NCBI GenBank assembly: GCA_018902385.1
Contig: JABSSW010000009.1
Coordinates: 310,001-374,000 of the forward strand
Direction: 5' to 3'
Length of the DNA stretch: 64,000 bases
From: Physcia stellaris
Taxonomy: Eukaryota; Ascomycota; Lecanoromycetes; Caliciales; Physciaceae
The notes beneath the pieces were generated by a model, which ran no database searches, was not told the DNA's origin, and saw only the letters and a program-made list of their open reading frames with translations. Position numbers and translations under genes: made by a program. Positions 36,452-64,000 of this stretch are shown here, in pieces (position 1 is the stretch's first letter; each line of letters opens with the position of its first letter).

Positions 36452-36659
36452 TATTGAAAGAATCATGGGTGACTACCATTCTATTGCTCTGAATCTCGTT
36501 GTTCTTGTAACATACATGCAGATGGAGCACAAAAAAGTGTGCGGGTGCCAAGGCACTAGTCCCAACAAGGACGCACTAGTCCTTCTTTCGTCAGGTTATA
36601 TCAACTGGATCGTGACTGCAACACCTGCACAGCACATTTGCGGAGGCTGTATTTCAACA
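36452..36659 (-). repeat. LTR, left copy of the young Copia-type element
   Basis: 208 bp, from TATTGAAAG to TTTCAACA. The two ends are inverted relative to each other with one mismatch (TA instead of TG at the outer left). It contains CACTAGTCC twice. Confidence 0.88.
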
Positions 36660-38930: not shown

Positions 38931-39581
38931 TTTTTTCTTGAGTTTGTTCTTGATTTTCAATTCATGCTTTCGTAAATGATAATTCTCTTGTGTTCTTTTC
39001 GCTTGAATGAATCAACTGCATCTCGAAACATTAGTCAAGCTTGAATTCGTATGCTCGTGATACAGCGATCGAGAATTTTGCGTTCTCGAATCATTCGCGT
39101 CGAGGCAGGTGCATAGAAGAGGTGACCAGGGAAGAAAAGCAGGTGCGGATTCGGAGGTAGAGGATGCACTCTCTGGGTGCTTGCATACGATTTCTGATGC
39201 ACGATTCGAGAGAGGCGAGTGCGTTGTAGATGATGGAGTCGTCATTCTGACTGAGTGATAGGATTCGCGTAGATATTTCGACATCGTAAGGTATTCGCGA
39301 AGGGGTCTCGGTAGATAGGCGAATTCGCGAAGGATTCGTAAGGTGGTTCGGTAGGTAGGTGTTACTGCTGAAGTAACTGAGGGTGTACTGGATGTACTGT
39401 GTACCAAGGTACTGAATGCTGCCAATGCAACTGAGTCAATTCGGGTCTGACAAGACTGGATACTCCACTGAGTTGGTTACTGCGTGTGTACACTTCTGTA
39501 CTGCCTGCGGCTAGGTACTACTGCTTCGTGTGCTCCGACATGCTGCTGTAGCTGGTACTAGATGTAGTAGCGAAAGCTGCT

Positions 39582-39599
39582 AACCCGGTTCTCATAACC
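39582..39599 (-). other. Primer-binding region of the young Copia-type element
   Basis: On the plus strand CCCGGTTCTCATAACC abuts the right LTR; CTCATAACC is the anticodon arm sequence of initiator tRNA-Met. Copia-type elements are known to prime from an internal fragment of this tRNA. The Copia fossil at 53.8 kb has a related sequence in the same place. Confidence 0.65.
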
Positions 39600-39805
39600 T
39601 ATTGAAAGAATCATGGGTGACTACCATTCTATTGCTCTGAATCTCGTTGTTCTTGTAACATACATGCAGATGGAGCACAAAAGTGTGCGGGTGCCAAGGC
39701 ACTAGTCCCAACAAGGACGCACTAGTCCTTCTTTCGTCAGGTTATATCAACTGGATCGTGACTGCAACACCTGCACAGCACATTTGCGGAGGCTGTATTT
39801 CAACA
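39600..39805 (-). repeat. LTR, right copy of the young Copia-type element
   Basis: 206 bp; identical to the left copy except for two fewer A residues in one run. It is followed by the TAAAC target duplication at 39806-39810. Confidence 0.88.
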
Positions 39806-40054
39806 TAAACATTCAATAATTGAAATATGATTACATTCGAAATTCGTTTGAAATCATTAAATCATTTTCAAATGTTTCGAAACGTTTTCAAATTTTTTTA
39901 TTGATCAAAACATTCGTATAATCATTTTTTCGAATCATGATAATTTTGAAACATTCATGTGACACGCATAAATTCATTTTACATGTCATACAATAATCAA
40001 ACGTTTTACGATTCGAACGATGTTGTATATTGACATTTTTGAAAATGAATGTTT
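39806..40054. other. Mutated spacer between two LTR elements
   Basis: About 250 bp of CpC/CpT-free AT-rich DNA. It is the continuation of the host site interrupted by the young element (TAAAC at its start) and ends with the TGTTT target duplication of the next element (40050-40054). Confidence 0.7.
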
Positions 40055-40248
40055 TGTCAAAAGTCGTGTCTGACTAAAAGATAAACAGATAGCAAAACGA
40101 AAATATTTGATTTAAAAAGCAAATATGTACAAAAAGATCGAATGTCAAAAGTAGATTGTGAGCGTCAAGCCCTGATCGCGCTAGCTCCATATGGACTCTC
40201 GCTGATAAGATAAGGCCCCAACCGAGATCCTCAGGCATGCTCGTAACA
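40055..40248 (-). repeat. LTR, left copy of the 1982-bp element
   Basis: 194 bp. Compared with the right copy, about eight CpC/CpT-type transitions fall in its outer (left) 80 bp, while its inner half keeps GGCCCC and other C/G runs. Confidence 0.88.
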
Positions 40249-41402
40249 CTATCCCCCGTCTCCTCCAAGCTTCGTCCCGAAGCGAATAAACCACTCCTCC
40301 TACTCGGTCGGCGTTGCGAAGGGGTCCATTGGCTGTGGCCCAGGTACCAGCCTGGCCATGGTTGGAGCAGGAAGCCCCAAAGCAGGTGCGGCAGATGTGG
40401 AGAGGTAAATGCGAAAGCAGGAGATGTGCGAGAAGGAGAAAGGTAGATATATGCGGCGACGAGAATGAGAACCTTGTTGAGGACCTTGTTGAGGACCTTG
40501 TCGAATTGGTGCGGGAGATACCTGCAGATTAGTATGGTGAAACGGCCGATTTCTCAGGACGGAGCAGAAGCAGAAGCAGCAGGGCGGTATCGGTTCCGCG
40601 GGCGTATGCTGTTTCAAACTCCTCGGATTTGAACTTTTCGAGTCTTTATTAATCGGCGCGTCCTGATTGGCTGCAGATTCTGGGGCAGGACAGGGTGTTG
40701 GCGCATCGACGGCTGGCAGACGGCTGCGGAGAAGGCGGGCTGGATTGGCTGCGTGACAGGCCCACATTGACTGTTGTTCTCCACCTCTTCATGCCATTTG
40801 CTCCCGTATCGCTGCTGTGGTGTAATAGGTCCACCTCCATTGGGGGTATTGGCTGCGGAGGTGTAAAGAATCGAACAAAACAAGGCATGCGCTTTTCGTG
40901 TCATTGAAGCAGACTCACTAGCCATTGTAGCGGACTAACTGGGTGCCATTGAAGCGGGCAGAAACGCTAGGACTGGCGGAGCGGAGCGGAGCGTGACCCA
41001 AATTTTTTGTTTGGGGTTTTGGGTGATTGTTTGTTGGTTTGTTGGTTTGTTGGTTTGGTGGTGAGGTTGTTGTGTGTGGCTTCTATCCCCCTCTTCAACA
41101 AAGCGGTGTCCCAACGCTTAAACAAGGAGGTGGTTATTGTAGAGGCCATCTGGCGGGCTGACTGGCTCGGGGGTAGGAGGTCGTCTATTGACTGGCTGAC
41201 TGGCTCGAAAAGCAAGGAGGTCGGCTATTGACTAGGTGCCGAGGGCTCGAAGGAGGAAATCGACAATTGACTGCCGTTGTAGCAGGCTCACTGATTGACT
41301 GGCTTTCAGAACAAAAAAGGTCAACTCTTGATTGTCATTCTCGCAGACTCACGATGCGCATAGTGGAAGTGAGATGCAACCACCGCCTCCAAAGGGAGGA
41401 CT

Positions 41403-41620
41403 TCAGACTGGCGGTTTTCTTTTGACTCGCGTACCCCTACGAGTGGTCTGGCGGTTTTCTTTTGAACACTCGCGTACCCCTACGAGCGGTGAAGGCTTTG
41501 TTTCTACTCGCTCCCCCTACGAGCAACTGGCGGTTTTCTTTAACTACTCGCGTACCCCTACGAGCATATCTGGCGGTCTTATTTTGCTTACTCGCGTACC
41601 CCGACGAGCAACCCACTAAG
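41403..41620. repeat. Tandem hairpin array in the 1982-bp element
   Basis: About five units of 40-55 bp combine CTGGCGGTTTTCTTT with ACTCGCGTACCCCTACGAG. The second part is an imperfect palindrome (CTCG...CGAG around a C run). Unit length varies. Confidence 0.75.
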
Positions 41621-41842
41621 CAGGACGTTTGGCCGGGTGTCAGTTAGTCTCGCAGAACCCAGGGCGAGAGATCTGCTGTGCAAGAGACGATGAACCACCG
41701 TCACTGCGGATTGATGAGAAGGTTTCGTGCTGAAGATGAAACCGTCACGAATTGACAACGGCCTTGTTTCTTTTTACTCGTTGGCCGTCACGATAACGAG
41801 TGTGGAGTTTACATCGCCCGTCACGATGGAAATCAAATATAA

Positions 41843-42036
41843 TGTCAGGAGTCGTGCCTGGCTAAAAGATAAACAGAAAACAAAACGAGAATATTTGATC
41901 TAAAGAGCAAATATGTACAAGAAAATCGAATGTCAAAAATAGATTGTGAGCGTCAAATTTTGATCGCGCTAATTTCATATGAATTCTCGCTGATAAAATA
42001 AAATTTCAATCGAGATTTCCAGACATGCTCGTAACA
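41843..42036 (-). repeat. LTR, right copy of the 1982-bp element
   Basis: 194 bp. Compared with the left copy, about twenty transitions of CpC/CpT type fall in its outer (right) portion; its first 80 bp are nearly spared. The target duplication TGTTT follows at 42037-42041. Confidence 0.88.
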
Positions 42037-42041
42037 TGTTT

Positions 42042-42395
42042 GACGTTTTCGAAATTTGATGTGAAAATTGATCGAACAATCATTTCACACACAATAAATC
42101 GATTTGACACATTTTGACGATTGATGTATGATATTTGAATTTCGTAAAAGTTTATCAATCAATTTTTGAATAAATACACGTCGATTTCGATGATCAAAAT
42201 TCGTTTGTGATTGATGATGATTTCAAACGATATATGCATTCGTATTGATCGAATTCATCATGTATTCGATCATTCGTTTCGTTCATTTGAATTGTTTAAT
42301 TCGTGATATCGTTAATTTATTTCGAAATTGATTTGCACGATTCACATGATTCATATGAAAATTGTATTGCATTACAATAATGAATTGTTTGACGA
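42042..42395. other. Mutated AT-rich spacer before the Copia fossil
   Basis: About 350 bp of CpC/CpT-depleted DNA with no coding or repeat signal that I can assign. Confidence 0.5.
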
Positions 42396-42589
42396 TATTA
42401 AATGAATGTGAATGATTGTCATTGTATTGCATGCAATATTATCGAAATTGCGTACAGAAATAAATACAATTGATTGCGCAAATGTTTTTAATAATGATCG
42501 ATTTTGACACGTTTCGTTTAATCGATCAATCAGAAATTTGATTTTATTCGTGTTCATATTTCAATCTTTTGTCATCGTATTTTTCAACA
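42396..42589 (-). repeat. LTR of the minus-strand Copia fossil
   Basis: 194 bp, matched in inverted orientation by the two LTRs of the Copia copy at 53797-59682. Confidence 0.8.
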
Positions 42590-44897
42590 TTTTCATTCGA
42601 TGACAATCATGTTCATTGCATTCGTAAATGCGATTTTCATTAAATTTCAGTTTTTGCATTGATTGTGATTTTCATTGAATGTTAATTCGTGCAACGACGT
42701 AATTTTTATTGAATTTCAATTTTTACGTTCATTGATGAAAAAACATTGAATTTTTTTGATCAGAAAATCGAATTCGAACGATTTCGAAAAAATCATTTTG
42801 AATCATCATGCAATTCGAATTTGAACACGATCAACGAGTTTTTGTTTTCAATTATAATTTGTCAAATTCGTACAATCGAATCATTATCGTTTTAAAATGA
42901 AAAAAATAACGTAATTTTCATCAAATTCGAACTTTTTTAATTATTGACGAAAAAAACATTGACTTTTTTGATCAAAAAATTAAATTCGAACGATTTCAAA
43001 AAAAAATCATTTTGAATTATTATGCAATTCAGATTTGAACACGATTAACGAATTTTTGTTTTCGATCATGATTCGTCAAATGTGTACGATTGAATCATCA
43101 ACATTTTAATATGAAAAAAACAATTTTGATTATTGAAAAAATTTAATTGATTTTCGATTTTTTCAATTTCAATTGTTTCACGAATTTTTTGAATTTATTT
43201 TTTGACAATAATTTAATCAAATTATCGATTATCATGTTTGCATTTGAAACGTAATTCAATTGAATCAAATTTTTTTGATGCAAATTTTTGATGTTATGAT
43301 AAATCACATTAATGTGTTTTGATCGTTCGTGAATATGTGCGTTTTTGATCAACAAATTAACGATTTGATTATTTTTCAAAAATTGCATTGATAAACAAAT
43401 TTCATGTTTATCGTTTTGAATGATTGTTATTTGATTCAATTCGATTTCGAAATATTTGATAAAATTCAAATTTCGAAAAAATTGTGTTATTCATAATTTT
43501 TTTTAACGCATGTCGATAAAATCATATATTCGATTTCAATGATTGAAATAACGATCGATTTCTGTTTACGATTCATTCATGATATTGATTTTTCAACGAA
43601 CATGTAAACGTATTCGAAAATCGATTTTTTGTTCAATTTATCGATTGCGTAATCAAAATTCGAATAAATTTTGATTTTGAAATTTTCATTATTGTTCAAT
43701 TTCAAATCGTATACAAAATTTAAATCGATGATCGATCGAATATAACGAAACAAAATTTTTATTATTTTATCGTGATGTTTCGCAAAATCATTGAAATATT
43801 AATTTAATCGTTTTAATGCGAAAACGATATTTGAACGAATGTGTATAACAACATACATGAATTTTTCAATTTTGTGTTGATAATTTTTTGAATCAATTCG
43901 TTCGTCGTTCAATTCAATTGATTTGAATGAATCGTAATCGTTTATGAATAATTTCGTACGTTCGTGTTTATCGATATTCATATGCAATTCATTCAATATT
44001 TCGTTCAAATAATGAATTTGATTCAATCGAATAATTCGTTTTTTACGATCGCGAATGATTTTAATGTCAAAAATCTTTTTCATTTTTTTCAGATTTTTGA
44101 TTTTGAATATTTTTTTGAATTCATTTTTGAATCAATTGATTTGTTCGTTGAATTTGACGACAACAAAAATGTCATTCACGTAAAAAAATAATATGATTTT
44201 TCGTTTTTTATGACGAAACATGCAAAAATCAATCGAAATTTGTTCGAAATTCAATTTGTGCAATTTTTTTACGCAACGTTCGTGTCAATTTCTAATCGTT
44301 TGTTTCAATTCATAAAAATTTCGACGAATCAAAAATGTTTGTTCGAAAAATAAATTCACGTCGAATAACGATTTCATGTAAATTATTTTTTTTAAAAATG
44401 ATTTCGTGAAAACATTGTTGACGTTCATTTGATAACATTCGAAATTTTTCAACGCGACGATGACAAAAAACAAACGAAAAATATCGAATTTGACAATTGA
44501 AACAAAAATATTTGTATAATTTATTTCATATATTTGCGAAAAATTTTTGCAACGAATTTGATTTTCAATTTGTTCAACGTATCATTCACATGCATTTTGA
44601 TTTTGAACATTCATTTATTAATGACGATATTGACGTTTTTCGATAAAATAACGACGTTTCAAATTTCATTAATTATTAACGTCGTCAATTCGATTTGAAT
44701 AATTTCGAATCAAAATTTATTTCAAATGAAATTATTGACAATTTTTTGATAATTTTCGAACACAAATATGATTAATTTTTCAACGAATTGTCGATTTATT
44801 TTTTTTGTTGTTGCAAATAGAATTCATTTATCGTGTTCGCATGTATCAAAATTTTCGATTAAAAAATCATCATGACGCGTGCAATTTTGTTGCGATG

Positions 44898-45207
44898 TGT
44901 AAAAAATTTGAACATCAGAAATGTATAACAAAAAACGATATTATTTCTAAATTAATAATTGCAAAACTAATTATTTTTCACGAAATTTGTTATATACACG
45001 TTTTGTTTGATGCAACGTACACATCATTCAACGCTAATGCGCAAATATCGATGCGATAATCGTTGTTGCGTTGATTTTATTAATATGACGAAATTGTTTG
45101 TTTCATTGTATAATCGATTTGATGTTTCGAATTTGTTTAATTTGAAATTTCGACAATGAAAATTCGATTCGAACTTTTTGCAAATTTTGAACTTTGAATT
45201 TCTTACA
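44898..45207 (-). repeat. LTR, left copy of the Gypsy fossil
   Basis: 310 bp; pairs with 51092-51407. CGATG at 44893-44897 is the target duplication. Confidence 0.85.
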
Positions 45208-48200
45208 CGCGTTTTTTTTTTTTAAACATCGAAATTTCATGAAATAACAAAATCATGTGTTTGAAACATGTTTGATGTTTTCGTATCGATTTGAAAAAAC
45301 ATTGTAATCGTGATTTTCGCATTTGAAAATTTTAAAACTTGAAAAATCATTATGATCGTGATTTTCGCATTCGGAATTTTTTTTCGATTCATATTCAGTT
45401 TGCATTAAAAACTTGAAAAAACATTTTCTTGAATGATTCAGAAAAAGTATGATTTGATGATTTTATTTGTTTGTTGTTTTCAATATCGAAAATTTGATTT
45501 CGTACAATTCACAACTTTCGATTTGATGATTGACAACTAATTGAATGACAATGAATTTTGAATTCGAATTTTTTTATCATTTTTTATTTTTTTATTTCGT
45601 ATATTGAAATCGATGAATTGATTGAAAAAAATTAAACGCGAAAAACGTCATAATCGCGATCGCATTGAATATATCAAATTTTGAAATTTTCGATTTTTTA
45701 CATTTCATTTTATTCACATTCACGATATTTAACGTTCAATTAAATCAAACAACAATTTCTGAAAATGTTTTTGACACGATTCGATTTTCTATGCGTCGTA
45801 AGTTCTTGACAATAAACAACACAAAATCAATGATTTGAATGAATTTGTTTTTTAATTAATTGTTTCATCAAGAAAATTGCATTTATTTGACGTCGAATGC
45901 GTCGTCGATTCGTCAATTTGTTAACATCGTTTTTTTTCGAATTTTTGATGTGAAATTTTCGTAACATATTTCTCAAATGTTTGATCATTGATATTGATTT
46001 TCAAATACGTTTTTCATAATTTTTTCAACGAACGAGATAATAAAGTTTTGATTCGCTGTACGATTTTTCGAAATTTGATTTTTTTTGAAAATTTTACTAT
46101 TTTCAATCGTCTTGACGTCATATATTTTTTTCGTGATTTCATTTTCGTCAATTTCAATGTTTTCAAATTGATATGTGAATTTTAACGAAATTTTTTGTTT
46201 TTTTTTTTATTTAATTTTTTCGAAAAGCGAAACATGAAAAACATTGTGAATTCGTCATCGTTTGAATATTTTTATACGATAAGTTTGATTTTTTATAATT
46301 TCGAATATTTTGAATGATTCAAAGAATTTTCATTTCAATTTTTTATTTCGTTTGATGCGAATATTCTTGTCGTTGAAATTTACGAAATTTTTCACTTTGA
46401 AATTTTTTTTCGTCAGAATTTTTGCATTTTTGTATTTGATTTGCAATTTTTGAACATGAACTAAATTGATTTTGAATACGTTTAGCAATTTTGTCAAGTA
46501 TTTGACATGATTATTGACAAATTTCGATTTAATTTTGAAATTTGCAAAATTTTCAAATGACATTTTTGAAATGTATTTTTGCATGATTTCGAATGAAAAC
46601 ATTTGCGTTGATACATGTTTATTGTTGTTGTAAACGAATTTCGTCATGAACAATAATTTTATTCAATTGTTTTGTTCGAAATTGACGAACGTTTTGAAAT
46701 ATTGTTTCATGATATTATTTTGTCGTTTTGTTTGATCATCGATTTGCGAATGATATGTCGTGAACAATTTGAATTTGATTTTGAATGCGTAACACAACGA
46801 ATCGTGATATTTTGACGTGAAAATGAAATTTCGATCAATCGTTATTGATGACGAAAAATCATGAAATTTTATTATTTCACGTATCAGAATTTCAATCAGA
46901 TTTTTTGCGATTATCGTTTTCGTGACGAAAATGTAATATGTCATTTTCGTCAATTTATTTATCACGACGAATATTGAATCATGTGTGATTTCGTTTCATG
47001 TTTTGTTTTCAAATAATTTTGTCACGAAATTCATTGTCAAATCAATTCATTTGAATTTCGATATAAAAAAAAACGATAATTTTTCGTATGATTTGTGACG
47101 AGAAATTTTGTTTTTTTTGCAAATGACGCATGTTTCGCAATATTTTTTGATTTGTGCACGCATGTCACGATTTTGTTCGATGTTTTTTTCATTTCGTTTT
47201 GAATTCGATCAATAATATTTTTTTTGTATTAATTTTAAAATGCGTTCAACGTCAAAATGTTCGATCAAAAAATTGTCATGATTTGATTTAATGACGTTTT
47301 TTTTCAGATTTGATAATAAATATAAACGATTTTCGTGTCATAATATTTCATTTTCGTTTCGTCATTGCTCATTGTACATATCAAAAATAATTAATTTCTT
47401 TTTCATTTGTACGACGCAAAAATTTTCGTTTAACAATGATCGCATCAATTCAATAATCTTTTCGATGATTTTTTCGTCGTATATTGTTTCGATTTCGTGA
47501 ATATGTTTTCGCGCAATCATTTCATCGATCGATCGAAAAATTGTTGCATTATTCAATATTATGATTTTTCATTCATTGATAATCACGTCTGATTTCGTTT
47601 TTTGAACATTTTGACATTTCGAAAACGAATCGTGTTGATAATTTGATTTTCGCATTGTTGTTTGAATCGCATCGATACAAATTCGAAATTTCAACGAGTT
47701 TGCTTGAAGAAATCGTCGCAATTGATTCAGAATTTGACGATTGTTTTCGATTTTTTTTTTTTCAGAAATTATCATATGATTTGATCGTCGCGACAAATCG
47801 TTCGCAAAATTCTTTGTATCAAAACGATAATCGATGATAAAATCGTAACGTGATAATTTTGAATTCATCGAATTTGTCGAAATGACAACTTCGTTGTTGT
47901 CATGAAACGATTGAAATTTCGATAATTCGTCAAAACGAAAATTTTTTTTTTGATTTTTTCGAAATAATATCGTCATTGTTTGAAAACAAATACAATAATC
48001 AATAATTTTTTGTCATGAATTTCGTAATGACATTTCGTCGAAATCATTTTTTTCGAAAAATAAATTATCGAATGTCAATGTTTTTCGTCGTTTGTTTAAC
48101 ACAAAATTTTTTTTATAATTTTGTTCGAAACGTCGATTTTCACGCGAATTCGTTTAATTGAATCGAAATGTCGAAAAATAAATGTTTTCAAAAACGTTTG

Positions 48201-51091
48201 TTTCAAAAATTTGAACGTTTCGAAAATCTCGAAAATCAAAAAACTATTCGATATTCGTTTTTTATTTCGATTTCGATTTCGACTAATTGTTCGTTTTCGT
48301 TTCGTTTTTTTCTTATGAAGATTTGCTGATTTTTTTAACATGAAAATCAGAAATAGTGTCAATTTATTGAAGTTTTTGATGAAACGTTTGTAAAAATTGC
48401 ACAATTTCAAAAAATTCAAAATTTCAAACACGTTTTTCGAAATCGATCAATTTTGTATTGCATCGATTTTGTTTTTTTGCATTTGAACGTTTTTCGAAAA
48501 AACAACAAAATTCAAAAATTCGATATTGTTCGTGAATCATTTGCATTTGTCGTTGTTGATAAACAATTTATGTTTTTTTAAACGTTGAAAAATTCATTTG
48601 ACGTTTTCGATATGTTGTTTTTTATTCATAAAATAAATGACGATATCGTCAAAATATATTATGACGCAAAAATCGAATCGTTTTGTCAAAATTTTGTTGA
48701 CAAAATTTTGAAACGTGACAAATACATTAATAAAATCAAAAAATAAAACGATATATTCAAAATATTCATATCGCGTTCGAAACGTTGTTTTTCACTCATC
48801 ATTTTTTCGAATACGAAATTTATTGTATGTTGCGATCATATCGAAATTTGTATAAATACGAATTTTGTTTAAACGATCAAAATTTTCATCGATCAACGAT
48901 AAAAAATATTTGTTTTTAATGATTAACAAATTTAAATTTTTGTAATTCACGCACAAACGTAAATTCTCGTTTTTTTTTTGACGAAAAAAATTGAAATTTT
49001 TGTTGCGAAAATAAACGATTTGATAAAATCGTTTTTCAAATGTTTGTTCAAATAAATTTTCAATATTGTTAATTCGTTTTCAGATAACGAATAAATAAAT
49101 TCATAAAAAAATTTTTTGTTCGATTTCAAATTTATTGCGTGATCGTCAAATTCATAAATCGACAATTCGTAAATTTTTTTCTCATTCGAAATTTTTGCGA
49201 ATTTTTTCAAAATTTCAAATATGATGATTTTGATATTTGATTTTTTTTATTTTTATTAAAATTGAATTTATTTGAATTCGTCGTTCGATATGTATTTCAT
49301 TCAAATCATTTTTTTCGTCATGAAATATTCGTACGAACATAACGAAAATTTCATTTTTTTCGTCAATCACATCGTTGATTAATTTTTTCGATTCGATTTT
49401 CTCGATACGATTCATGATGAAAAAAAATTTTGAATTGATAATTGTCAAAATCGAATTTTATTTGCAATTCAATTCATTTTTGTTTTTGATAATTTAAATC
49501 ATGACAAATTTAACGATATATTTCAAAATAAATCGATTTTTAGAAAATTTTCGTTGAAAAAACGATTCACGTCGTTTTCGTTCGAAATTTTTAATCGTAC
49601 GAAATAGATTTCATAAATTTTGAATTGATTGTTGTCGAAAATCATGATTTCACAAAAAAAAACGTCGAACAAAATTAATTTGAACTTTTTAACAAAAACG
49701 TTATTTATCAAATTAATTTCTGTTTTTGAATTCATGATTGCAAAAATCTCGATATCATTGATTTTGATTTTGATTTTATCACATTTAATTGTGCGAAATT
49801 TTTTCGACGACGTTTGCTGATGATATCGTTAAAATTCGTCGAGAAAAATTCGTCGTCGTTGTTATTGTTCGTTAGAAAGTTTTTCACTATGTCAATTTGA
49901 TTGAAAAATGTCAAATCGTTTAATTTTTTGTTTTTTCGATTTCAAACAAAAACTTTGCAAAAACAATGCATTTTTTTTTGTTGATGCAAACGTTGATATC
50001 ATGTTCGTTTTTATCACATTCAAAACATTTTTCATTTTTCTTTATGACAGCGAATTCGATTTTGATTCAACGATACAATTTAAATTTGATTGAATTTTTG
50101 TTAAAATTATCGAATTTGAATTTTTATCGTTTTTTCATTGTCATTGCTATTTTCGTTGTCATTGTTGTTGAATTTGTTCTTTTTGTTGAATTGTTTTTTT
50201 CGTTGATAAAATTATCGTCATTTTTTTTGCGTTTGTTGAAATCATTGTTGATGTTAATTTCGATAATTTTCTGTTTGTTATATTGATTGTTTTGATAGTC
50301 AGCGTTTTCGATTTTCTTGAAACGATTAAAAATTTCAATCTTAGTATGCATATCGCGTTTTTTAGCGAGAAAACGCTTATGTTTCGAAAACAATTCTCTA
50401 ATGAAGTTCTGAAATTTCTCGTGATTGTTGAATTTCAATTTCGACGTAAATTGAATCATGAAAGCGATTCGATTGACGTCATAATTCATAACAAATTGCT
50501 TGTTGATTTGTTTATAATTCAAATATTTATCGTAAATATTTTCGATTTTGATGAAAACTTTTTGTACGTTGATTTTCAAAAATTTCTTGTATTCGATTCA
50601 TGTGCGTTTTTCGTTTGATTTTGCAATGACGTCGATTTCTCATAACATGTGAATAATGATTTCTCGTTTCAAAAAATTTCAACGTATACAAATTTAACAT
50701 TATTCGAATCGTTTGCGAAACGATCGCATTGATTGATTTTGAATTGATTTTTCATGATTCGAATATAAAATATTCATTCGACGTAAAACTTTTTGATATA
50801 AAACGCAAATGTTTGTTCGATTGTTTTGATATGATAAAATTTATCGTTGCGACGAAAAATTTCAAATACAACAAAAAACGATGATTGCATGAAACGTTGA
50901 CGTGTTAAAATTATTTGTTGACGAATATAAATTTTTCATTGTGCAATAAATGTTTTTGTTTCAAATTTTTCGAACAAAAATTTCGCATCGAAATTTGACA
51001 ACGATGAAATATCGCGTGCAATCATTGAAATATATTTAATTGTAATTATACACGAATGATGTTAATTTGATGATTATAATAATTATTAAAA

Positions 51092-51407
51092 TGTAAAATT
51101 CGTGAAATGTGACATCAAAAATGTATAACTGAAAACAAAATAATTTTTAAATTAATAATTGCAAAATTAATTATTTTTCACACGATTTGTTATATACACG
51201 TTTTGTTTGATGCAACGTACACATTATTCAACGCATATGCGCAAATATCGATGCGTTAATCGTTGTTGCGTTGATTTTATTAATATAACGAAATTGTTTG
51301 TTTCATGATATAATCGATTTGATATTTCGAATTTGTTTGATTTGAAATCTCGACAATCGAAATTCGATTCATTGTTTTTGCAAATTTTGAATTTTGAATT
51401 TTTTACA
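51092..51407 (-). repeat. LTR, right copy of the Gypsy fossil
   Basis: 316 bp; pairs with 44898-45207 with scattered differences. CGATG follows at 51408-51412. Confidence 0.85.
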
Positions 51408-52741
51408 CGATGTTCATTTCGTTTTTTCTCGTTCGTGATATTTCGTTTACGTTTAAAAATTGTCACGTGAAAAATTGTTGCATCATGCGTGAAAATTTCG
51501 TGAAAAATGTTAATTTAACACGCGTTTGAATTGTCGATTTCGCGATAAATTCGTTGATTTCATTTTTTTCATTTGATGTATCGATAAATTCATCGTTTTT
51601 TTTATGTGCATTGATTGAATTTTTTTTTTGTTTTTCGAAATCATAAACGCAATAAAAATCGAAAATTTCGCAAAAATTGATGCAACAAATATTGATACAA
51701 ACGTCGATATCATCGAAACGATTACAAATGCAAAAATTATTTTGCGTGATTTTTCGACAAATCGTTTTTCAAATAATTCGTTCATTGTAATCGTGAACAA
51801 ATTCAACGATTTGTTTTTTCATTTTTCACGTTCAAAAAACATTATTTTGTAATGTTTGATGACATCACGACGATCGAAAATTCATATTTTGTATTGAATC
51901 GTGATGTTTTCGTCATAATTCATGAACACGTTTGATTTTTTTGTATTGACGAATTTATTTTTTTTATTTTTTTCAAACAATGATTTGATATTAACGAACG
52001 AATAACATTTGCATTTTCAAACGCGTATGTGATTTATCGACGATTTAATATCTGTTCAAATTTCAATAAAATTTGTTGAATTGTCGTCGATTATTGATTT
52101 CGTGTTCATACGATTGCGAACGTATACATTTGTTTTCGTTGCTTTAAATCAAAATTCTATAAACAATTTTGCATTTTGAATCATTGTTCGAATTTGATTT
52201 TCGAATGTTTTTATGACACGTTTTATTACATCGTTTTGAATGAAATTATACGAAACGATGTACTGTGAAACAATGTCGATAAATTCGCATCAAAAATCGA
52301 ATATAAATTTCAATTTTTTGACGTTGTCACAACGTATTGTTTGTAATTTTCGTTAAATTTCTAATTTCATTTTCAATTTTTATTTGTTGAAAATTTCAAA
52401 AATATCGATTCGTTTGCGAAAAAATAAAATTCACGTTCGTCGAAAATGATTATTCACGATTTTTAAAAAATATTCGTAATCGAATTTTGAAACGAATAAA
52501 AATTCACAAATATCGATAAATATCAATTTCAATATATGAATTTTGCGTTCGATTAAACGACGATTATGTGTATTAATCATTTTCGTAATCGCATATATTT
52601 TGCATAAATCGTTGCGATTTTCAACAATAAATATTGATTTGCGTAAAATTGTGATTTTGTGCAAATTTCGAAATTTTGCAAATTTCATATGATCAAAACG
52701 TCGATGTCATAATTCGTATAAATCACGTTTTTTTTGATTAA

Positions 52742-52841
52742 CATTTGAATCAATATTTGAATCAATATTTGAATCAATATTTGAATCAATATTTGAATCA
52801 ATATTTGAATCAACATTTAAATCAATATTTGAATCAACATT
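52742..52841. repeat. 12-bp tandem repeat inside the minus-strand Copia fossil
   Basis: About eight units of ATATTTGAATCA, encoding Asn-Ile-Asp-Ser repeats on the element strand. The opposite-strand Copia copy has only about four units at the same place (about 55.80-55.85 kb). Confidence 0.85.
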
Positions 52842-53796
52842 CGATAATTGAAAATCGATTTCGATATTATTTCGAAAATCAATATTTGCATCGAACAAAA
52901 TTTCGTTCGAATTCACGATTGTTGACATTGCAAATGAAATAAACAAAATTTTAAAAAATTCAATTGCAAATATCGTGTTGTTCGTTAACAATGCGTATTT
53001 TTTAAATTTTGATGTAATTTTGTTTATTATGTAAACATTTTTTTGAACGAATGTTCGAAATATTTCAACGTTTTGTTTATTGCGCATAAACAAATTATCG
53101 TCATTGAAATTTTTTATCAAATTTTTTTTGATAAAATGTTTGTCGAATAAAAAATTAACGTCGAAATCAAATACATAAAACATTTTTATCAACATGTTTT
53201 TATCGTTTTTGACGCGTATCGTCATTGAATCACATTGATTTAAATACAATTTTTTTTTCGATTTTAATCGTGCGTTTTTTTAATCGACTTGAAAAATTCA
53301 TTAAAAAATCGAAAATCGTCAATCATATGAAACGAAACGTCAATGTTTGCAATTCAAACGAATTTGAAAAATTTATTGATCAATTTTTTGAATAAAACGA
53401 CGATTTTTTTCATGTGTTTTTCATTGTTTGAATCGATGTCGATGTCGAAATTTGAATTGTTATTGAACGAAAAAAAATCGACGACGTTGTACGTTTTGTG
53501 TTTTTTATTTTTGCGTAAAAATTTTTTGATTTTTTGTTTTTTCGTTCATTTTTTTAATTTTTTCAAAAAATTACATTTTGCGATTCGATGTGAATCATCG
53601 CAAAAAAAACATTTCGTTTTTTTCGTTTTAATTTTGAAACGACGAAAATTTTCGTCGAAATTGAAAAATCGTCGTTGAAATATGCGATAAAATTGACGAC
53701 GATTATTTTTGATTATCAATGTCGATTCGACGATTTTGTTCGCAATAAATTGTGTTTTTTTTTTTTTTTGCAATTTTTGAATAAATTTATCGATAT

Positions 53797-53992
53797 TGTT
53801 GAAAAGTACGATAACAAAAATTGAAAATATGAACACGAATAAAATCAAAACTTCTGATTGATCGATTAAACGAAACGTGTCAAAATCGATTATTATTAAA
53901 AACATTTGCGCAATCAAATTGTATTTATTTTTGTACGTAATTTCGATAATATTGCATGTAATGCAATGACAATCATTCACATTCGTTCAATA
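53797..53992 (+). repeat. LTR, left copy of the plus-strand Copia fossil
   Basis: 196 bp, a close match to 59487-59682. Its left end abuts the Gag part of the minus-strand Copia fossil. Confidence 0.87.
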
Positions 53993-56900
53993 AATTATGA
54001 AATTCGAATTAACATAAATTTTTTGTGATTGTCAACGTCAATCGTTCGATCACGAAATCACGAAAATCAAACAACAATGAAAATGTTTCATCGATTCGAT
54101 CGCGTCAAAATTGTAAAAATGTTTTACATATTCGAATTCGATCATCAATTCAACGAATGAACGAACGATTGTGAAAATGTTTCACGAAATACAACAAATA
54201 AAAAAAATTTACATATTTACATATCATATCACGCATCATGAACGATTTCGAATTCAACAAATTCAACGCGCGTCGAGTTTGCGATATTTTCATTCGTCAA
54301 AATTGCGAAAAATGATTCAAATTAATGAAACAATGATTTATCGACGAAAAAATTTGAATAATCGTCGATTCAAATTATGTGTCGAAATTGTTATCGAATG
54401 ATTTTCGAAAATCAAAATGAAATGTCGATTTGAATTTTGATAAAAAAAAAATTGAAAAAAAATTCGACGCAAAAACACAATATCAATTCATCGAATGTAT
54501 CGATGACGATAATCAAAAATTGATAACGAAATTGAAAATTGTCAAAAAAATTTGAAAAATTTTTGTCAACAAATACAAACAAAAATTTGTTACAATTGAA
54601 CGACAATTGTTGCAAAAATTCATGAATTACAAAAAATTTTCAAACGTGATTATTGAAATCGTTTATATCGATATTATCAAAAAAAATCGCAAAATTGCAA
54701 ACATGCAATCAAACATAACGAATTTGTTCAAATCAAAACGTCGTTTTCAAACATTTTTAACATTTTTGTTTGTCGAATACGATGTCATTCGTGATACAAT
54801 CGACGCACAAAACAATTTCGATATCGATAAATTTATTCAAAAATTGCAAAAAAAAAAAAAAACACAATTTATTGCGAACAAAATCGTCGAATCGACATTG
54901 ATAATCAAAAACAATCGTCGTCAATCGTATCGCATATTTCAACGACGATTTTTTAATTTTGATGAAAATTCTCGTCGTCGTTTCAAAATCATGACGAAAA
55001 AAATTAAAAATGTTTTTTTGTGACGATTCATACAAAATCGAATCGAATGCAATTTTCTGAAAACATTAAAAAAATGAACAAAAAAACAACAAATCAAAAA
55101 CTGTTTTTAATCAAAAATAAAAAAAAAAACAAAAAACATAAAACGTACAACGTCGCAAATTTTTTTTCGTTTAACAACAATTTCAATTTCGACATCGACA
55201 TCGATTCAAACAATGAAAACGATATGAAAAAAATCGTCGTTTTGTCAAAAAAATTGATCAATAAATTTTTCAAATTCGTATGAATCGCAAATATCGACGT
55301 TTCGTCACACATGATTGACGATTTTCGATTTTTTAATGAATTTTTCAAATCGATTAAAAGACGCACGATCAAAATCGAAAAAAAAAAATTGTATTCAAAT
55401 CAATGTGATTCAATAACGATGCGCGTCAAAAATGATGAAAACACGTTAACGAAAATGTTTTATGTATTTGATTTCGACGTCAATTTTTTATTCGACAAAC
55501 ATTTTATCAAAAAAAATTTGATAAAAAATTTCAATAACGATAGTTTGTTCATGCGCAATAAACAAAACGTTGAAGTATTTCGAGCATTCGTTTAAAAAAA
55601 TGTTTACATAATAAACAAAATCACATCAAAATTTAAAAAGTACGCATTGTTAGCGAGCAACACGATGTTTGCAATTGAATTTTTTGAAATTTTGTTTGTT
55701 TCATTTGCAATGTCAACAATCGTGAATTCGAACGAAATTTTGTTCGATGCAAATATTGATTTTCGAAATGATATCGAAATCGATTTTCAATTATCGAATG
55801 TTGATTCAAGTATTGATTCAAATGTTGATTCAAATATTGATTCAAATGTTAATCAAAAAAAACGTGATTTATACGAATTATGATATCGACGTTTTGATCA
55901 TATGAAATTTGCAAAATTTCGAAATTTGCACAAAATCACAATTTTACGCAAGTCGATTTTCATCGTCGAAAATCGCAACGATTCATGTAAAATATATGCG
56001 ATTACGAAAATGATTAATGCACATAATCGTCGTTTAATCGAACGCAAAACTCATATATTGAAATTGATATTTATTGATATTTGCGAATTTTTATTTGTTT
56101 CAAAATTCGATTACGAATATTTTTTAAAAATCGTGAATAATCATTTTCGACGAACGTGAATTTTATTTTTTCGCAAACGAATCGATGTTTTTGAAATTTT
56201 CAACAAATGAAAATTGAAAATGAAATTAGAAATTCAACGAAAATTACAAACAATACGTTGTGACAACGTCAAAGAATTGAAATTTATATTCGATTTTTGA
56301 TGCGAATTTATCGACATTGTTTCACAGTACATCGTTTCGTATAATTTCATTCAAAACGATGTAATAAAACGTGTCATAAAAACATTCGAAAATCAAATTC
56401 GAACAATGATTCAAAATGCAAAATTGTTTATAGAATTTTGATTTAAAGCAACGAAAACAAATGTATACGTTCGCAATCGTATGAACACGAAATCAATAAT
56501 CGACGACAATTCAACAAATTTTATTGAAATTTGAACAGATATTAAATCGTCGATAAATCACATACGCGTTTGAAAATGCAAATGTTATTTGTTTGTTGAT
56601 ATCAAATCATTGTTTGAAAAAAATAAAAAAAATAAATTCGTTAATACAGAAAAATCGAACGTGTTTATGAATTATGACGAAAACATTACGATTCAATACA
56701 AAATATGAATTTTCGATCGTCGTGATGTCATCAAACATCACAAAATAATGTTTTTTAAACATGAAAAATGAAAAAATGAATCGTTGAATTTGTTCACGAT
56801 TACGATGAACGAATTATTTGAAAAACGATTTGTCGAAAAATCACGCAAAATAATTATTGCATTTGCAATCGTTTCGATGACATCGACGTTCGCATCAATT

Positions 56901-59486
56901 TTTGTCGTATCAATTTTTGCGAAAATTTCGATTTTTGTTGCGTTTATGATTTCGAAAAACAAAAAAAAAATTCAATCAATGCACAAAAAAAAACGATGAT
57001 AAATTCATCGATACATCGAATGAAAAAAATGAAATCAACGAATTTACGACAAAATCGACAATTCAAACGCGCGTTAAATTAACATTTTTTATCAAATTTT
57101 CACGCATGATACAACAATTTTTTCACGTGACAATTTTCAAACGCAAACGAAATATCACGAACGAAAAAAACGAAATGAACATCGCAACAAAATTGCACGC
57201 GTTATGATGATTTTTTTGATCGAAAATTTCGATACGTGCGAACACGATAAATAAATTTTGTTTGCAACAACAAAAAAAACAAATCGACAATTCGTTGAAA
57301 AGTTAATCATATTTGTATTCGAAAATTATCAGAAAATCGTCAATGATTTTATTTGAAACAAATTTTGATTTGAAATTATTCAAATCGAATTGACGACGTT
57401 AATAATCAATGAAATTTGAAACGTCGTCATTTCATCGAAAAACGTCAATATCGTCATCAATAAATGAATATTCAAAATCAAAATGCATGTGAATGATACA
57501 TTGAACAAATTGAAAATCAAATTCGTTGCAAAAAATTTTTCGCAAATATATGAAATCGATTATACAAATATTTTTGTTTCAATTGTCAAATTCGATATTT
57601 TTCGTTTGTTTTTTGTCATCGTCGCGTTGAAAAATTTCGAATGTCATCAAATGAACGTCAACAATGTTTTCACGAAATCATTTTTAAAAAAAATAATTTA
57701 CATGAAATCGTCATTCGACGTGAATTTATTTTTCAAAACAAACATTTTTGATTCGTCGAAATTTTTATGAATTGAAACAAACAATTAAAGATTGACACGA
57801 ACGTTGCGTAAAAAAATTGCATAAATTGAATTTCGAACAAATTTCGATTGATTTTTGCATGTTTCGTCATAAAAAACGAAAAATTATATTGTTTTTTTAC
57901 GTGAACGACATTTTTGTTGTCGTCAAATTCAACGAACAAATCAATTGATTCAAAAATGAATTCAAAAAAATATTCAAAATCAAAAATTTGAAAAAAAAAA
58001 AAATTTTTGACATTAAAATCATTCGCGATCGTAAAAAACGAATTATTCGATTGAATCAAATTTATTATTTGAACGAAATATTGAATGAATTGCATATGAA
58101 TATCGATAAACACGAACGTACGAAATTATTCATGAACGATTACGATTCATTCAAATCAATTGAATCGAACGACGAACGAATTGATTCAAAAAATTATCAA
58201 CACAAAATTGAAAAATTCATGTATGTTGTTATACACATTCGTTCAAATATCGTTTTCGCATTAAAACGATTAAATTAATATTTCAATGATTTTGCGAAAC
58301 ATCACGATAAAACAATGAAAATTTTGTTTCGTTACATTCGATCGATCATCGACTTAAATCTTGTATACGATTTAAAATTGAACAACAATGAAAATTTCAA
58401 AATCAAAATTTATTCGAATTTTGATTACGCAATCGATAAATTGAACAAAAAATCGATTTTCGAATACGTTTACATGTTCGTTGAAAAATCAATATCATGA
58501 ATAAGTCGTAAGCAAAAATCGATCGCTATTTCAATCATTGAAGTCGAATATATGATTTTATCGACATGCATTAAAAAAAAATTATGAATAACACAACTTT
58601 TTCGTGATTTGAATTTCATTAAATATTTTGAAATCGAATTGAATCAAATAACAATCACTCAAAACGATGAACATGAAATTTGCTCATCAATGCAATTCTT
58701 GAGAAATAATCAAATCGTTAATTTGTTGATCAAAAACGCACATATTCATGAACGATCAAAACACATTGATGTGATTTATCACAACATCAAAAATTTGCAT
58801 CAGAAAAATTTGATTCAATTGAATTACGTTTCAAATGCAAACATGATAATCGATGATTTGATTAAATCGTTGTCAAAAAATAAATTCAAAAAATTCGTAA
58901 AACAATTGAAATTGAAAAAATCGAAAATCAATTAAATTTTTCTCAATCGTCAAAATTGTTTTTTTCATGCTAAAATGCGTTAATAATTCAATCGTACACA
59001 TTTGACGAATCATGATCGAAAACAAAAATTCGTTGATCGTGTTCAAATTCGAATTGCATAATAATTCAAAATGATTTTTTTTGAAATCGTTCGAATTTAA
59101 TTTTTTGATCAAAAAAAATCAATGTTTTTTTCGTCAATAATTAAAAAAATTCGAATTTAATGAAAATTACGTCATTTTTTTCATTTTGAAACGATGATAA
59201 TTCGATTATACGAATTTGACAAATTATAATTAAAAACATGAATTCGTTAATCGTATTTAAATTAGAATTGAATAATAATTCAAAATGATTTTTTTCGAAA
59301 ATTCGAATTCGATTTTCTGATCAAAAAATTCAATGTTTTTTCATCAATGAACGAAAATTCGAAATTCAATGAAAATTACGTCGTTGCAAAATTAACATTC
59401 AATAAAAATCATAATCAATGCAAAAATGAAATTCAATGAAAATCGCATTTACGAATGCAATGAACATGATTGTCATCGAATAAAAA

Positions 59487-59682
59487 TGTTGAAAAATACG
59501 ATGACAAAAAATTGAAAAATAAACACGAATATAATCAAAATTTCTGATTGATCGATTAAACGAAACGTGTCAAAATCGATTATTATTAAAAACATTTGCG
59601 CAATCAAATTGTATTTATTTCTGTACGTAATTTCGATAATATTGCATGCAATGCAATGACAATCATTCACATTCGTTCAATA
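59487..59682 (+). repeat. LTR, right copy of the plus-strand Copia fossil
   Basis: 196 bp, a close match to 53797-53992. Confidence 0.87.
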
Positions 59683-59725
59683 ATTTGCATATATAAACAC
59701 GATACGTTATTCAAAAAAATTTACA

Positions 59726-59880
59726 TGTTTTTTTTTTTTTCAATTTTTTTTTTTCAATTTTTTTTTTTTTCAATTTTTTTTTTTTTACAAAATTTCAAAA
59801 GTTTGTTAATACATTTTTTCAATTTTTCAATTTTTTGATTTTTTTTTTTTTTTTTTTCAATTTTTTTTCAACAAAGTTCA
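59726..59880. repeat. Poly-T tracts with CAA interruptions
   Basis: Runs of 8 to 15 T separated by CAA or short breaks. It could be a decayed poly-A/T tail of an element or simple sequence; no coding part could be tied to it. Confidence 0.75.
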
Positions 59881-61764
59881 AAAAAATTTGTCGATACATT
59901 TTTCTTTTCGATTTTTTTAATTTATTTGTCAAATTTTTTTTTCGATTAATATATTAATTTCATTATTATCGTGTAATTTTTGTTTTATATTTAACATTGT
60001 TCAATCAAATATTTGTTTTTTTTTTTTTTTCAATTTCGAATTTTGCGCATCGAAATTTTGATTTTCAATATTGTTACAAAATCAAAAAATGATATTTTTG
60101 TAATATTTCATATGTTAATCGAAATTTCAAATTATTAATTCAATTATTTTGAAATTTTGTTATATGTTTAGAAATGAATATTGTTTCATTGAATCAAATT
60201 TGTTAATTTTCGAAATTATTACAAAAATAAATTTTAAAAATAATCATCATTGTACACGCGATTCGAATTCGCAATAATAAATAAAACAATCATGAATAAA
60301 AATTGTTTATTTATAATTCGTATCGTTAAATTAAACAATTAATTTCATTTCGTTAAAATATTGATCATTTATTTGCATATATAATTACGAAACAACATTT
60401 AAAATTTTTTGTATTTGTGTCAATCATCGTTTTACGAAAATCAATATTTAACATTGAATATATTTATTTAATTTTATTTAATCGTTTTATTTTATCGTCA
60501 CATTTTCGCAAAAATAATATTTATTTTTCAAATTTTTTTGAATTTGTTTATCGAAATTATTTGAAATTTGTTCATCATAAAATATCAAAAATTTTATCAT
60601 AATTGTCATGCATGATTTGATTTTTAAAAAATTGTTTTTCGAATTAATCTAATTATAAATGAACAAAATAATTGTTTTAAACGAAAAATAAAAATAAAAT
60701 AAAAACATTCGTTTTGTATTGTTAATATTGAAATTCTAAATTAACATATTTGAATTTAACATTAAAATGTAAATATCATATAATACAATGAACACATTTT
60801 CAATAACAATTTTTGCATTTAACATTAAGATTTTTGTATTCAACAAATCAGAAAATTCATTTTTGTATCGAATGTTCATATTTCAAATAATAATATCAAA
60901 ATTCAAATAATCAATAATAAAATCATTGTTAACAATATTTATATTTATGTTTCGAATGTTTGAATTTTTGATTTCATTTTTTTATTCGAAATTTCGATAA
61001 TTACATTCATGCAATTTTAATTTTTTCAATTTTTTCATTTTTTCGTAAAAAAAAAACAATTTGAATTACATGCGAAAATTATATGCATCGTTTTCAATAA
61101 TAATTTTTTGAAATATAAAAATTTTTGATGTCGTATTTTGTTGAATTTTCAAAAAATAATGACGTATTGTTGATAACGTTATGCAAATATAAAATATATG
61201 ATGTTTGATTTTCGAAATAACGAATTTCAACAAAAAAAAATTCGTTTTCAAACATCAAATAACACGAAAAATAAATATTATAATGTGAATTTGTTTTACG
61301 TATTTTGCATTTTCATGTAAAATCAATAATGATTCATAAAATTCGCATACATGTATAATTTTAATCGTACGTTTTAACATTTTCAAAAAATAATAATATC
61401 GAACGTCGAAAAAATAATTGTATTGATGATTTTAATTGTTGAAAAAAATATTTTTCAATCGAAATTTATTTATAAATACATGTTATAATATTATCAACGT
61501 CGATATGATTGTTTTTGAACATTTTGTTTTTTATTAAATTTTTAATCAAACAATCATATTTTTTAATTTTTTGAAAAAATTAAATTATTTAATGTTCATT
61601 TTCGAATTATGATTTTCGTCATTTGCATTTTCATAATCATTATCGTTAAACAAATGATCGAAATCGTTATTTTTTTCGAAAACATTGTCAAAATTATCGA
61701 AATTGTCGTTGAATATTTTTATTGATTTTTCAATTATCATTTTATTGCGTGTGATATTTTTATT

Positions 61765-61805
61765 TCGATTATCGCGATTTCGATTATCGCGATTTCGATC
61801 ACGTT
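61765..61805. repeat. 15-bp tandem repeat
   Basis: About two and a half units of CGATTATCGCGATTT, encoding Arg-Asp-Asn repeats on the minus strand. Confidence 0.7.
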
Positions 61806-62094
61806 TTAATGTATTTTGAATTTCAATCGATTGCGTCATTTTGACAATTTTTTTTCGTGTAATTTTGATTTCGATCAATTTAATTTTTTTGTTTCGAATC
61901 GTCATATTTGAAAGTTTCGATTCATGATTAAAAAAATTTCGATCGATGAATTTTGATTTTCGTTTTTTGATTCGAATTGTTATGTCGTTTTTGTTTTGTG
62001 ATTTTCGATGTTTGTTTTTCAATTCGATAATTGCAAATTTTTTGTTTGTTATTTCAATAACGTCGACGTCGTCTAACATCGAAAATATAATCAA

Positions 62095-62375
62095 TATTCA
62101 TAATATTATCAATATTATCGACGTAATCAAAATTAAAAATATTGTTTTCGTCGTGAACAAAATTGAAAATATCATTATTATCGAAAACACGAACAAAATT
62201 CGAAAAAATATCGTTATTCGAATGATCAACAATGAAATTTTCGTTATTATCGTTAATATCGAAAACATCGTCATCATTGACAACAAAATCGTCATTTCGA
62301 TCAACATCGACGACATTATTATTATCGAAAACACGATTAAAATTAAAAACATTGTTTTCATCGTCAATCGATAAA
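62095..62375. repeat. Degenerate ATTATCGAAAA-type repeats
   Basis: Irregular repeats of ATTATCGAAAACA, AATATCGAAAACA and GAAAATATCATT type give repetitive Asn/Ile/Glu frames on both strands. Probably an old minisatellite altered by the block's mutation. Confidence 0.5.
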
Positions 62376-64000
62376 ACGAAAAAAACGAAACGTGATTGAA
62401 ATCGATTGCGATTATTTCATAACACGTATTTTACGTCAAAAAACGTTTTTTTTTGTCAAAAATAATCGAATTCGAATTCGAATTCGAATCGATTTGCGTG
62501 ATCAATGAATTTCAAAAACGAATAAAATCAAATTTCGATATAATGAAAAAAATTAAATTTTAACAATTTCAAATGAAAATGAAACAATTAAAACGAAAAC
62601 AACGATGTATTTTCAAATCGATCGATTTCGAATAATTTCAAAAAAAATTTCGTATATTGTGAACATACGAAATATTTGTTGTGATATTATGAATGTCAAT
62701 ACACGATTCAAAAAAATGTATATTTGATTTTTTTGAATTTTGATAAATCGTTTGTATTGTTTTTCGATTTTGTGCAAAACGTGAAATGTAATCAAAATAA
62801 ACAAATCGCGATAAAATTGTCGATTAAATTTCGTGATTGTTGATTTCGTTCGAATTTATTTAACGATTTCGAAATAATTTTCATATTGTTTAAAAAATAA
62901 AATTTTTAAACGTTTGATTACAAATTTCATATTGTCAATAAAATATTTAAATATTTGTTTCAAAATGCGATAATCGTTTTCAATTCGAAAAAAAAATTTA
63001 TGAACGTTGAAATACAATATGTCGTTGATATTGTAATTGCAAAAACAACGTCATCATAAAACATCAAATCAAATTTTGTGCAAATACAAAATTTCGTCGC
63101 GATGAAAACGTTTGTATTTATTTTTTAATTTTTTTCAAATTAAATTGTAATTTTCACGAATGAAAACGTAAATAATTTCGAATCAATATTTCATGAATTT
63201 TTGTCATTTTTGTTCGATTTTGTTATCGTTGAAAAAATGTTCGCAATGTTTTCGAATTTTTTTGTTCATGTGATAAATGAAAAAAAAAAAAAATATTTGT
63301 TGTTGAATATCGAAATTCGAAAATTTCGAACAATATTCAATTCGAAATGAAAACGATTACAAAAAAATTGAAAATTTAATCGTCGATACAATTGATCGAT
63401 ATCAAATATCATTTATGTCAAATTCGTTTTATTTTTCGTATTAACAAAAATCAAATTTCAATAAAAATTAATGTTTAATGAAATTTGTTTCAAAAAAACA
63501 AATATCGACAATTCGTATTGTTTGATTTTGCAAATGTTATTCAACACGAAAATTTCGAAATTTTTGAATAAAAAATCGACGACATATTTATTTTGACGAC
63601 AAAAAAATTATTTATACGATCGTGATGTTTCACATCGCGACGATTTCAAATTCAATTAATAAAATCGAAAACGAAAACATCGTACAAAATTTTCATAAAA
63701 ATGTCAATGTTCAATTTTTGCGTTTTGATTTTTTTTTTCGCATTGTAAATATTTTGAAAAATGAAAAAATGATTGAAATGATTCGTGATTAAATCATTCA
63801 AAATTTCGATCGAAATTATGTTTATGTTTGTTAAATTGAAAATTGAATTTGTCGATTAAAAAATTGATTTTTTTCGTTTACAATTGCGATTTTTTTCAAA
63901 ATTTCGTTTGTTATTTGATGTTTGTGATGTACACGAAAATTTTTCGTTGAAACGAACGAATGATTATAAAATTTCGTTTTAATCGTGAATTTTTATTGCG

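Follow-up and report, generated by a model that had tools for sequence, protein, structure and literature searches.

We analyzed a window of 64,000 bp from contig JABSSW010000009.1 of Physcia stellaris, in which approximately 42 kb of ordinary DNA (G+C content around 0.48, with intact-looking genes) is followed from position 42037 by a 22-kb block with a G+C content of 0.245 that continues past the end of the window. Cytosines that precede a pyrimidine (CpY) have almost disappeared from this block on both strands, and the present analysis concerns the process behind that loss and its relation to the repeat-induced point mutation (RIP) of other fungi. Positions 1-36000 of the window (G+C content 0.483) served as the reference for unaffected DNA, and the features of the locus are listed in Table 1.

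Much of the block is made up of nested Copia and Ty3 retrotransposons. The two Copia copies are 91-94% identical and lie head to head, and the Ty3 element sits inside the first of them, flanked by a 5-bp target duplication (CATCG) that occurs singly in the uninterrupted Copia copy. Integrase_H2C2, SH3_Tf2-1, RVT_1 and RVT_2 scored above the Pfam cut-off in 3 of 10 pieces, a second Pfam set placed RVT_2 above the cut-off in two of five block pieces, and gag_pre-integrs and SH3_retrovirus gave matches below the cut-off in two further block pieces. Matches in the structure database were to Ty3 itself (7q5b, E = 3.1e-21; 4ol8, E = 5.9e-30), and the tRNA and Rfam scans each returned 0 hits. Public contig collections gave no match either, whether viral and genome contigs were searched with an LTR 22-mer, viral contigs with the element-1 open reading frame and a piece of the Copia reverse transcriptase, or genome contigs with a vacuolar protease. 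In both Copia copies a segment of about 214 bp is duplicated in tandem, the repeats being 80-82% alike (42697-43123 and 58959-59385). Within the block, positions 59690-61200 have a G+C content of 0.164; CpG is half as dense and TpA twice as dense there as in the remainder, and oligo-T arrays lie at 59728-59947. This segment is of different origin from the rest of the block, though CC is equally absent from it.

Table 1. Features of the analyzed window, with the mutated DNA first and the neighboring genes last (LTR, long terminal repeat).
Feature	Position	Strand	Remarks
Main saturated block	42037-64000	.	0 CC, 1 GG, 97 CT, 82 AG; continues beyond window
Saturated island	39806-40054	.	0 CC/GG, 0 CT/AG; one DNA with the block before element 2 inserted
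Graded left edge of mutated DNA	36331-36451	.	No CC/GG, few CT/AG; gradient over about 120 bp
Partly mutated zone	21350-22640	.	CC 0.08, GG 0.20, CT 0.66, AG 0.83 of normal
Element 2, younger LTR element	40055-42036	.	Interior unmutated; 5-bp target duplication TGTTT (40050-40054, 42037-42041)
Element 2, left LTR, 194 bp	40055-40248	.	9 CpY sites mutated, 8 at LTR positions 6-79 by the saturated flank
Element 2, right LTR, 194 bp	41843-42036	.	22 CpY sites mutated, 21 at LTR positions 82-181 toward the saturated flank
Element 1, youngest LTR-type insertion	36452-39805	.	Target duplication TAAAC; LTRs 208 and 206 bp; unmutated
Copia copy 1, 3' part	42396-44897	-	Reverse transcriptase RVT_2
Copia copy 1, 5' part	51408-53796	-	5' end approximate
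Copia copy 2, saturated	53797-59686	+	LTR-like ends 53797-53996 and 59487-59686, 95% identical
Ty3/Gypsy retrotransposon, saturated	44898-51407	-	Inside Copia copy 1; LTRs about 44898-45207 and 51099-51407
Ty3 integrase region	46207-48153	-	10 in-frame TGA, no TAG, TAA at end only
Ty3 reverse transcriptase region	48096-49457	-	10 in-frame TGA, no TAG, TAA at end only
F-box/LRR gene	2794-4497
P450 gene	8453-9304
TPR protein gene	12038-14362
HET gene	17130-18020
AMP-binding enzyme gene	27954-29357
PFF1 vacuolar protease gene	31759-34746
Chalcone isomerase-like gene	34935-36176

The dinucleotide counts showed how selective the loss has been. Positions 42042-64000 (21,959 bp, G+C content 0.245) contain 0 CC, 1 GG, 97 CT and 82 AG, together with 1315 CA, 1227 CG, 1423 TG, 1303 TA and 1505 TC, and the observed/expected ratios of the 16 dinucleotides in 1-36000 range from 0.70 to 1.19. 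When expected counts for 42037-64000 were scaled from 1-36000, a single CC or GG was left of approximately 2411 (0.04%) and 179 CT or AG of approximately 2840 (6.3%), while CA plus TG stood at 92%, CG at 103% and TA at 126% of expectation; the two strands were depleted alike. Base composition alone is excluded as the cause, as 200 mononucleotide shuffles of the block yielded 657 ± 26 CC plus GG (minimum 589) and 2027 ± 34 CT plus AG (minimum 1933). The original prediction, made from the letters, had stated that CpC and CpT are removed from the AT-rich block and that composition could not explain it; both statements hold, CpC and CpT being nowhere near expectation and the effect being stronger than claimed. 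Its sample count in 62101-62340 was exact (37 C, of which 18 in CA and 19 in CG, and no CC, CT, AG or GG). The extent that it gave, 42042-64000, is right for the block but has to be widened, as the block begins at 42037 and the island at 39806-40054 and the graded edge near 36331-36451 belong to the mutated DNA as well; the partly mutated zone at 21350-22640 was absent from its list.

A single substitution rule reproduced the composition of the block. We applied C-to-T rules for 13 contexts to both strands of 1-36000 and compared the resulting k-mer spectra with the block. Conversion before C or T was the best of the 13 models, with r = 0.997, 0.994 and 0.990 for 2-, 3- and 4-mers and a predicted G+C content of 0.244 against the observed 0.245. 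The runner-up, with T alone as the next base, reached r = 0.962 for 2-mers, and next-base contexts A, G, CG, AC and AT gave only 0.32, 0.50, 0.81, 0.66 and 0.77. The sum of CA, TG, CG and TA, which is invariant under the CpY rule, came to 239.9 per kb in the block, compared with 236.8 in normal DNA. The misfit was small (per thousand, TA 59.3 observed vs 47.0 predicted, CA/TG 62.3 vs 67.7, and CT and AG 4.1 each vs 0), as expected if CpA is lost slowly in addition and CpT loss is incomplete. The density of TC in the block (67.1 per thousand) was kept as the model predicts (65.9), which argues against ultraviolet (UV) dipyrimidine damage, since such damage would have hit TpC cytosines too.

Direct proof of the C-to-T direction is given by the two long terminal repeats (LTRs) of element 2. 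Saturated DNA lies on both sides of this element, so its target was already mutated when it inserted. The two LTRs, which matched each other fully when the element inserted, differ at 16 of 16 CpC and 15 of 29 CpT sites, and at 0 of 24 CpA and 0 of 18 CpG sites (CpY vs CpR, C before a purine, Fisher p = 4.7e-13), these counts being blind to sites already mutated in both LTRs. All 31 transitions fall at CpY (top strand 15, bottom strand 16), against 1 transversion in 194 aligned bases. The changed positions in the two LTRs occupy different halves (Mann-Whitney p = 0.0014), and each LTR is altered mainly beside saturated DNA, indicating that the process reached about 80-115 bp into the element. 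When the element-2 repeats were aligned with ragged ends, 3 CpA changes appeared; these sit outside the LTRs, as an alignment trimmed to exactly 194 bp per LTR shows 0. The element also holds a 43-bp tandem array of about 5 copies (41408-41608).

The same LTR pair bears on the possibility that a cytosine deaminase acts directly on the DNA, such as an APOBEC-like enzyme or a domain resembling DNA-deaminating toxins, and that a methyltransferase plays no part. Exclusive C-to-T change on either strand would suit a deaminase, and methylation is not indicated by anything in the window. However, deamination of retroelement cDNA is at odds with the nearly equal strand split, the changes reach the edges of chromosomal insertions and are not restricted to the element, and the base that decides here is the 3' neighbor, so that TpC before a purine survives, as the 1505 TC show; enzymes of the APOBEC type read the 5' neighbor. 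We consider a deaminase quite improbable. Its one-strand cDNA form was rejected outright, because CC and GG, like CT and AG, were lost alike and the LTR changes split 15/16.

The left margin and the partly mutated zone recorded earlier stages. The graded edge and the island are separated from the block by two younger insertions. Element 1 has LTRs with zero substitutions and one 2-base gap and shows no spill, which marks it as the youngest insertion; its longest minus-strand open reading frame (ORF; 37941-39011) has zinc-finger-like spacing by eye and matched no Pfam family above the cut-off. The zone at 21350-22640, the sole part of 1-36300 in which 300-bp windows contain no more than 8 CC plus GG, is short of CC and GG with CT and AG little affected, and therefore indicates that CpC is lost first and CpT next; CA, TG, CG and TA are at 0.94-1.08 of normal there. 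A 164-bp direct duplication, 80% identical, lies at 26950-27341 in a stretch with mildly low CC/GG, and its copies differ in no clear context (2 CpC, 7 CpT, 3 CpA and 7 CpG). These stages also bear on a base-calling or assembly artefact, in which methylated C before a pyrimidine would have been called T. Miscalls of modified bases can produce strict context rules. Against this, about 99.96% of CpC/GpG in 22 kb are affected, including bottom-strand sites that opposite-strand reads would show as plain G, and three zones stand at different stages beside normal elements and genes. Such an artefact is very improbable.

The consequences for coding capacity follow the same rule. Translated in the standard code, the block has no frame longer than 190 codons, and 100 first-order Markov sequences used as control reached up to 189; with TGA read through, its longest frame rises to 648 codons (control maximum 375), and frames of at least 200 codons total 4821 codons. 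Reading TAA or TAG instead gave longest frames of 261 and 190 codons (values without a Markov control). Frames that reopen only through TGA are expected if TGG became TGA while CAA and CAG did not become TAA and TAG. Among the aligned TGA codons of the Ty3 integrase, 3 of 8 lie under a Trp of Ty3. Full CpY conversion of four unaffected ORFs in the window created 54 stops, all TGA, and full CpA conversion of the same ORFs created 143 TAA/TAG stops. Proline and glycine codons are nearly gone from the block (1 and 1 of 43,914 six-frame codons).

Our observations thus establish the substitution, its direction, the order of contexts, the action on both strands, the saturation and the spill into flanking new DNA. 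The model, the LTR pair and the counts all bear out the mutational part of the original prediction, namely C-to-T change at CpY on both strands of transposon DNA with CpA and CpG nearly untouched, and we regard this signature as practically certain. The process behind it may be a RIP-like genome-defence or heterochromatin process that converts C to T wherever a pyrimidine follows on the same strand, starting with CpC and going on to CpT. It acts on both strands, within transposon DNA and for about 100 bp past the edges of that DNA. The enzyme would be of the cytosine-methyltransferase type (RID/Masc1 or DIM-2 class, DNMT1 family) with a changed preference for the 3' neighbor; it could be nucleated by repeats and spread from established heterochromatin, and would act much more slowly at CpA and then CpG. 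Taken as a whole, mechanism included, this account seems to us reasonably probable. A broader proposal, that a lineage of filamentous fungi has a genome-defence mutator which reads a 3' pyrimidine and not adenine, be it a diverged or an unrelated enzyme, which drives CpC to completion, keeps saturation up against back-mutation, encroaches on new insertions and has escaped notice because CpA, TpG and TpA are what RIP surveys score, is put forward tentatively, as a serious possibility that we would not yet favor.

The main competitor of an active mutator is slow decay, in which heterochromatin is methylated at CpC and CpT and 5-methylcytosine is deaminated in the ordinary way over a long time. 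The restriction of the mutation to AT-rich transposon DNA and its edges, the untouched young insertion and the slow decay of CpA and CpG would all fit this view. However, the changes in element 2 were fast relative to ordinary mutation, with 31 CpY transitions and every visible CpC site changed for 1 transversion. The block also holds 2947 TC plus GA sites, each one transition away from CC or GG, and yet a single CC/GG is present, which suggests quick renewed conversion and continued action, not one ancient event. Slow decay would moreover need methylation in the context order CpC > CpT >> CpA > CpG, and we know of no eukaryotic methyltransferase with such an order. We therefore judge slow decay unlikely, and an active mutator with a CpY preference remains the explanation that we prefer.

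Several observations weigh against that explanation. First, the analysis covers one locus of one genome, and a transposon origin was traced for the block up to about 59.7 kb, while 3 pieces from 61585-63855 had no family above the cut-off. Second, element 2 is mutated at its edges only, which favors spreading from flanking chromatin and gives no support to copy counting. Third, none of the 4 TGA codons aligned in the reverse transcriptase matches a Trp of Ty3, and three stand opposite Tyr or Phe. Fourth, the context is not absolute: CpA is a weak target that comes third and is hit slowly, and CpG, hit more slowly still, comes fourth. The saturated Copia copies differ at 112 of 646 CpA (17%), 40 of 558 CpG and 40 of 48 CpT sites, with 34 transversions in 4828 aligned bases, and CpA accounts for most of their transitions (62 of 107 and 60 of 108). 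The sparing of CpA and CpG that had been predicted is accordingly true for the most part but not of these old copies. Dominance of CpA-to-TpA change in repeat alignments, which had been named as evidence to the contrary, appears between the saturated copies but not in the LTR pair caught part-way, where no CpA site differs. As CpC and CpT have been exhausted in the two saturated copies, they can hardly differ there, and the alignment reports the runner-up context. The context order is nearly the reverse of that in Neurospora.

The CpA share between saturated copies is also what classical CpA-directed RIP would have in its favor. Under the RIPper criteria (product >1.15, substrate <=0.75, composite >0; thresholds as in the accessible text of PMC7882544), none of the 42 windows in the block scored positive, nor did any of the 82 elsewhere. 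The block means were 0.41 for product, 1.53 for substrate and -1.12 for composite, the last lying below the -0.59 of the rest of the window, so the expectation that standard indices would miss the block proved correct. Contexts of the CpA or CpG type fitted worse in the model, and the element-2 LTR pair, in which 0 of 42 CpA and CpG sites differ, refutes classical RIP and CpG deamination as the main process. We give practically no credence to an origin in classical RIP, CpG deamination or UV damage.

The process works like RIP, but it is a distinct variant and not canonical RIP; it is not filed under that name because the CpA preference was tested for and is lacking. As in the RID-dependent RIP of N. 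crassa, change is from C:G to T:A only, falls on both strands of transposon DNA (here two Copia copies and one Ty3 element) and leads to strong AT-enrichment. The RIP of N. crassa also spills beyond the repeat. Unlike in N. crassa, CpC leads, TpA is not enriched relative to ApT (0.41) and the stops are TGA only. Loss of CpG with a gain of TpG and CpA, the pattern of CpG methylation followed by deamination or of a process like methylation induced premeiotically (MIP), was absent, as was the one-strand bias of APOBEC-type editing of cDNA. Like DIM-2 or heterochromatin-directed mutation, the process would be confined to established AT-rich chromatin, and it spreads into neighboring DNA, at the element-2 LTR edges and at 36331-36451; a CpC/CpT preference of the DIM-2 system was not found in the partly accessible literature covered.

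Reported contexts vary among fungi. In the accessible text of PMC5496416, the order for N. crassa is CpA > CpT > CpG > CpC, and in crosses of T. reesei CpA and CpG lead and CpC comes last; T. reesei thus resembles our locus in departing from the N. crassa context, there shown experimentally, and differs in placing last the dinucleotide that comes first here. CpT has been described besides CpA (PMC2621366; PMC6180176; PMC10998396), and CpT-to-TpT change is major in some families of Botrytis, Sclerotinia, Magnaporthe, Colletotrichum truncatum and Anisogramma (PMC4352252; PMC6180176; PMC10998396), with Copia families of C. truncatum biased to CpT (CpA/TpG index near 0.12; PMC6180176). In the accessible parts of those sources, however, CpA is hit as well, at the level of the genome or the family, and CpC is not named, whereas the present locus has lost CpC first and kept nearly all of its CpA; the text available of PMC4352252 gives CpA, CpT and CpG signatures, and the term CpC is nowhere in it. 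Hypermutation in Microbotryum (TpCpG), Rhizoctonia solani and Tuber likewise places C-to-T changes of repeats outside the CpA rule (PMC4014442; PMC4352252), but CpG-type hypermutation differs from the locus, which spares CpG. A table for R. solani in the accessible text of PMC4014442 has CpC changes as the most closely spaced of the four contexts (whole genome, 214 bp vs 370-491 bp); it is a set of heterokaryon single-nucleotide polymorphisms, without the CpC loss found here. Older genomic repeats can be RIPed without RID (available text of PMC11969663). No description of CpC-led RIP was found in the literature searched, subscription papers lying outside the search.

A 2025 kingdom-wide k-mer study concluded, in its accessible text, that RIP-like defences share a CpA preference (PMC12543289), and the present locus, whose HET gene and other genes point to a probable filamentous ascomycete, is a counter-example. 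RIP surveys based on dinucleotides use indices that are blind to the CpY signature, and by these indices the block looks less affected by RIP than the adjacent genes. The outcome for proteins also differs from that of CpA-directed RIP, as the only stops are TGA and proline and glycine codons are almost wholly removed. An enzyme with a CpY preference would make it possible to test directly what determines the target context of RID/DIM-2-type enzymes.

Among the neighboring genes of Table 1, between the TPR protein and HET genes, two arrays of a 21-bp unit, with about 3 copies each and in inverted orientation, lie about 360 bp apart at 15444-15960.

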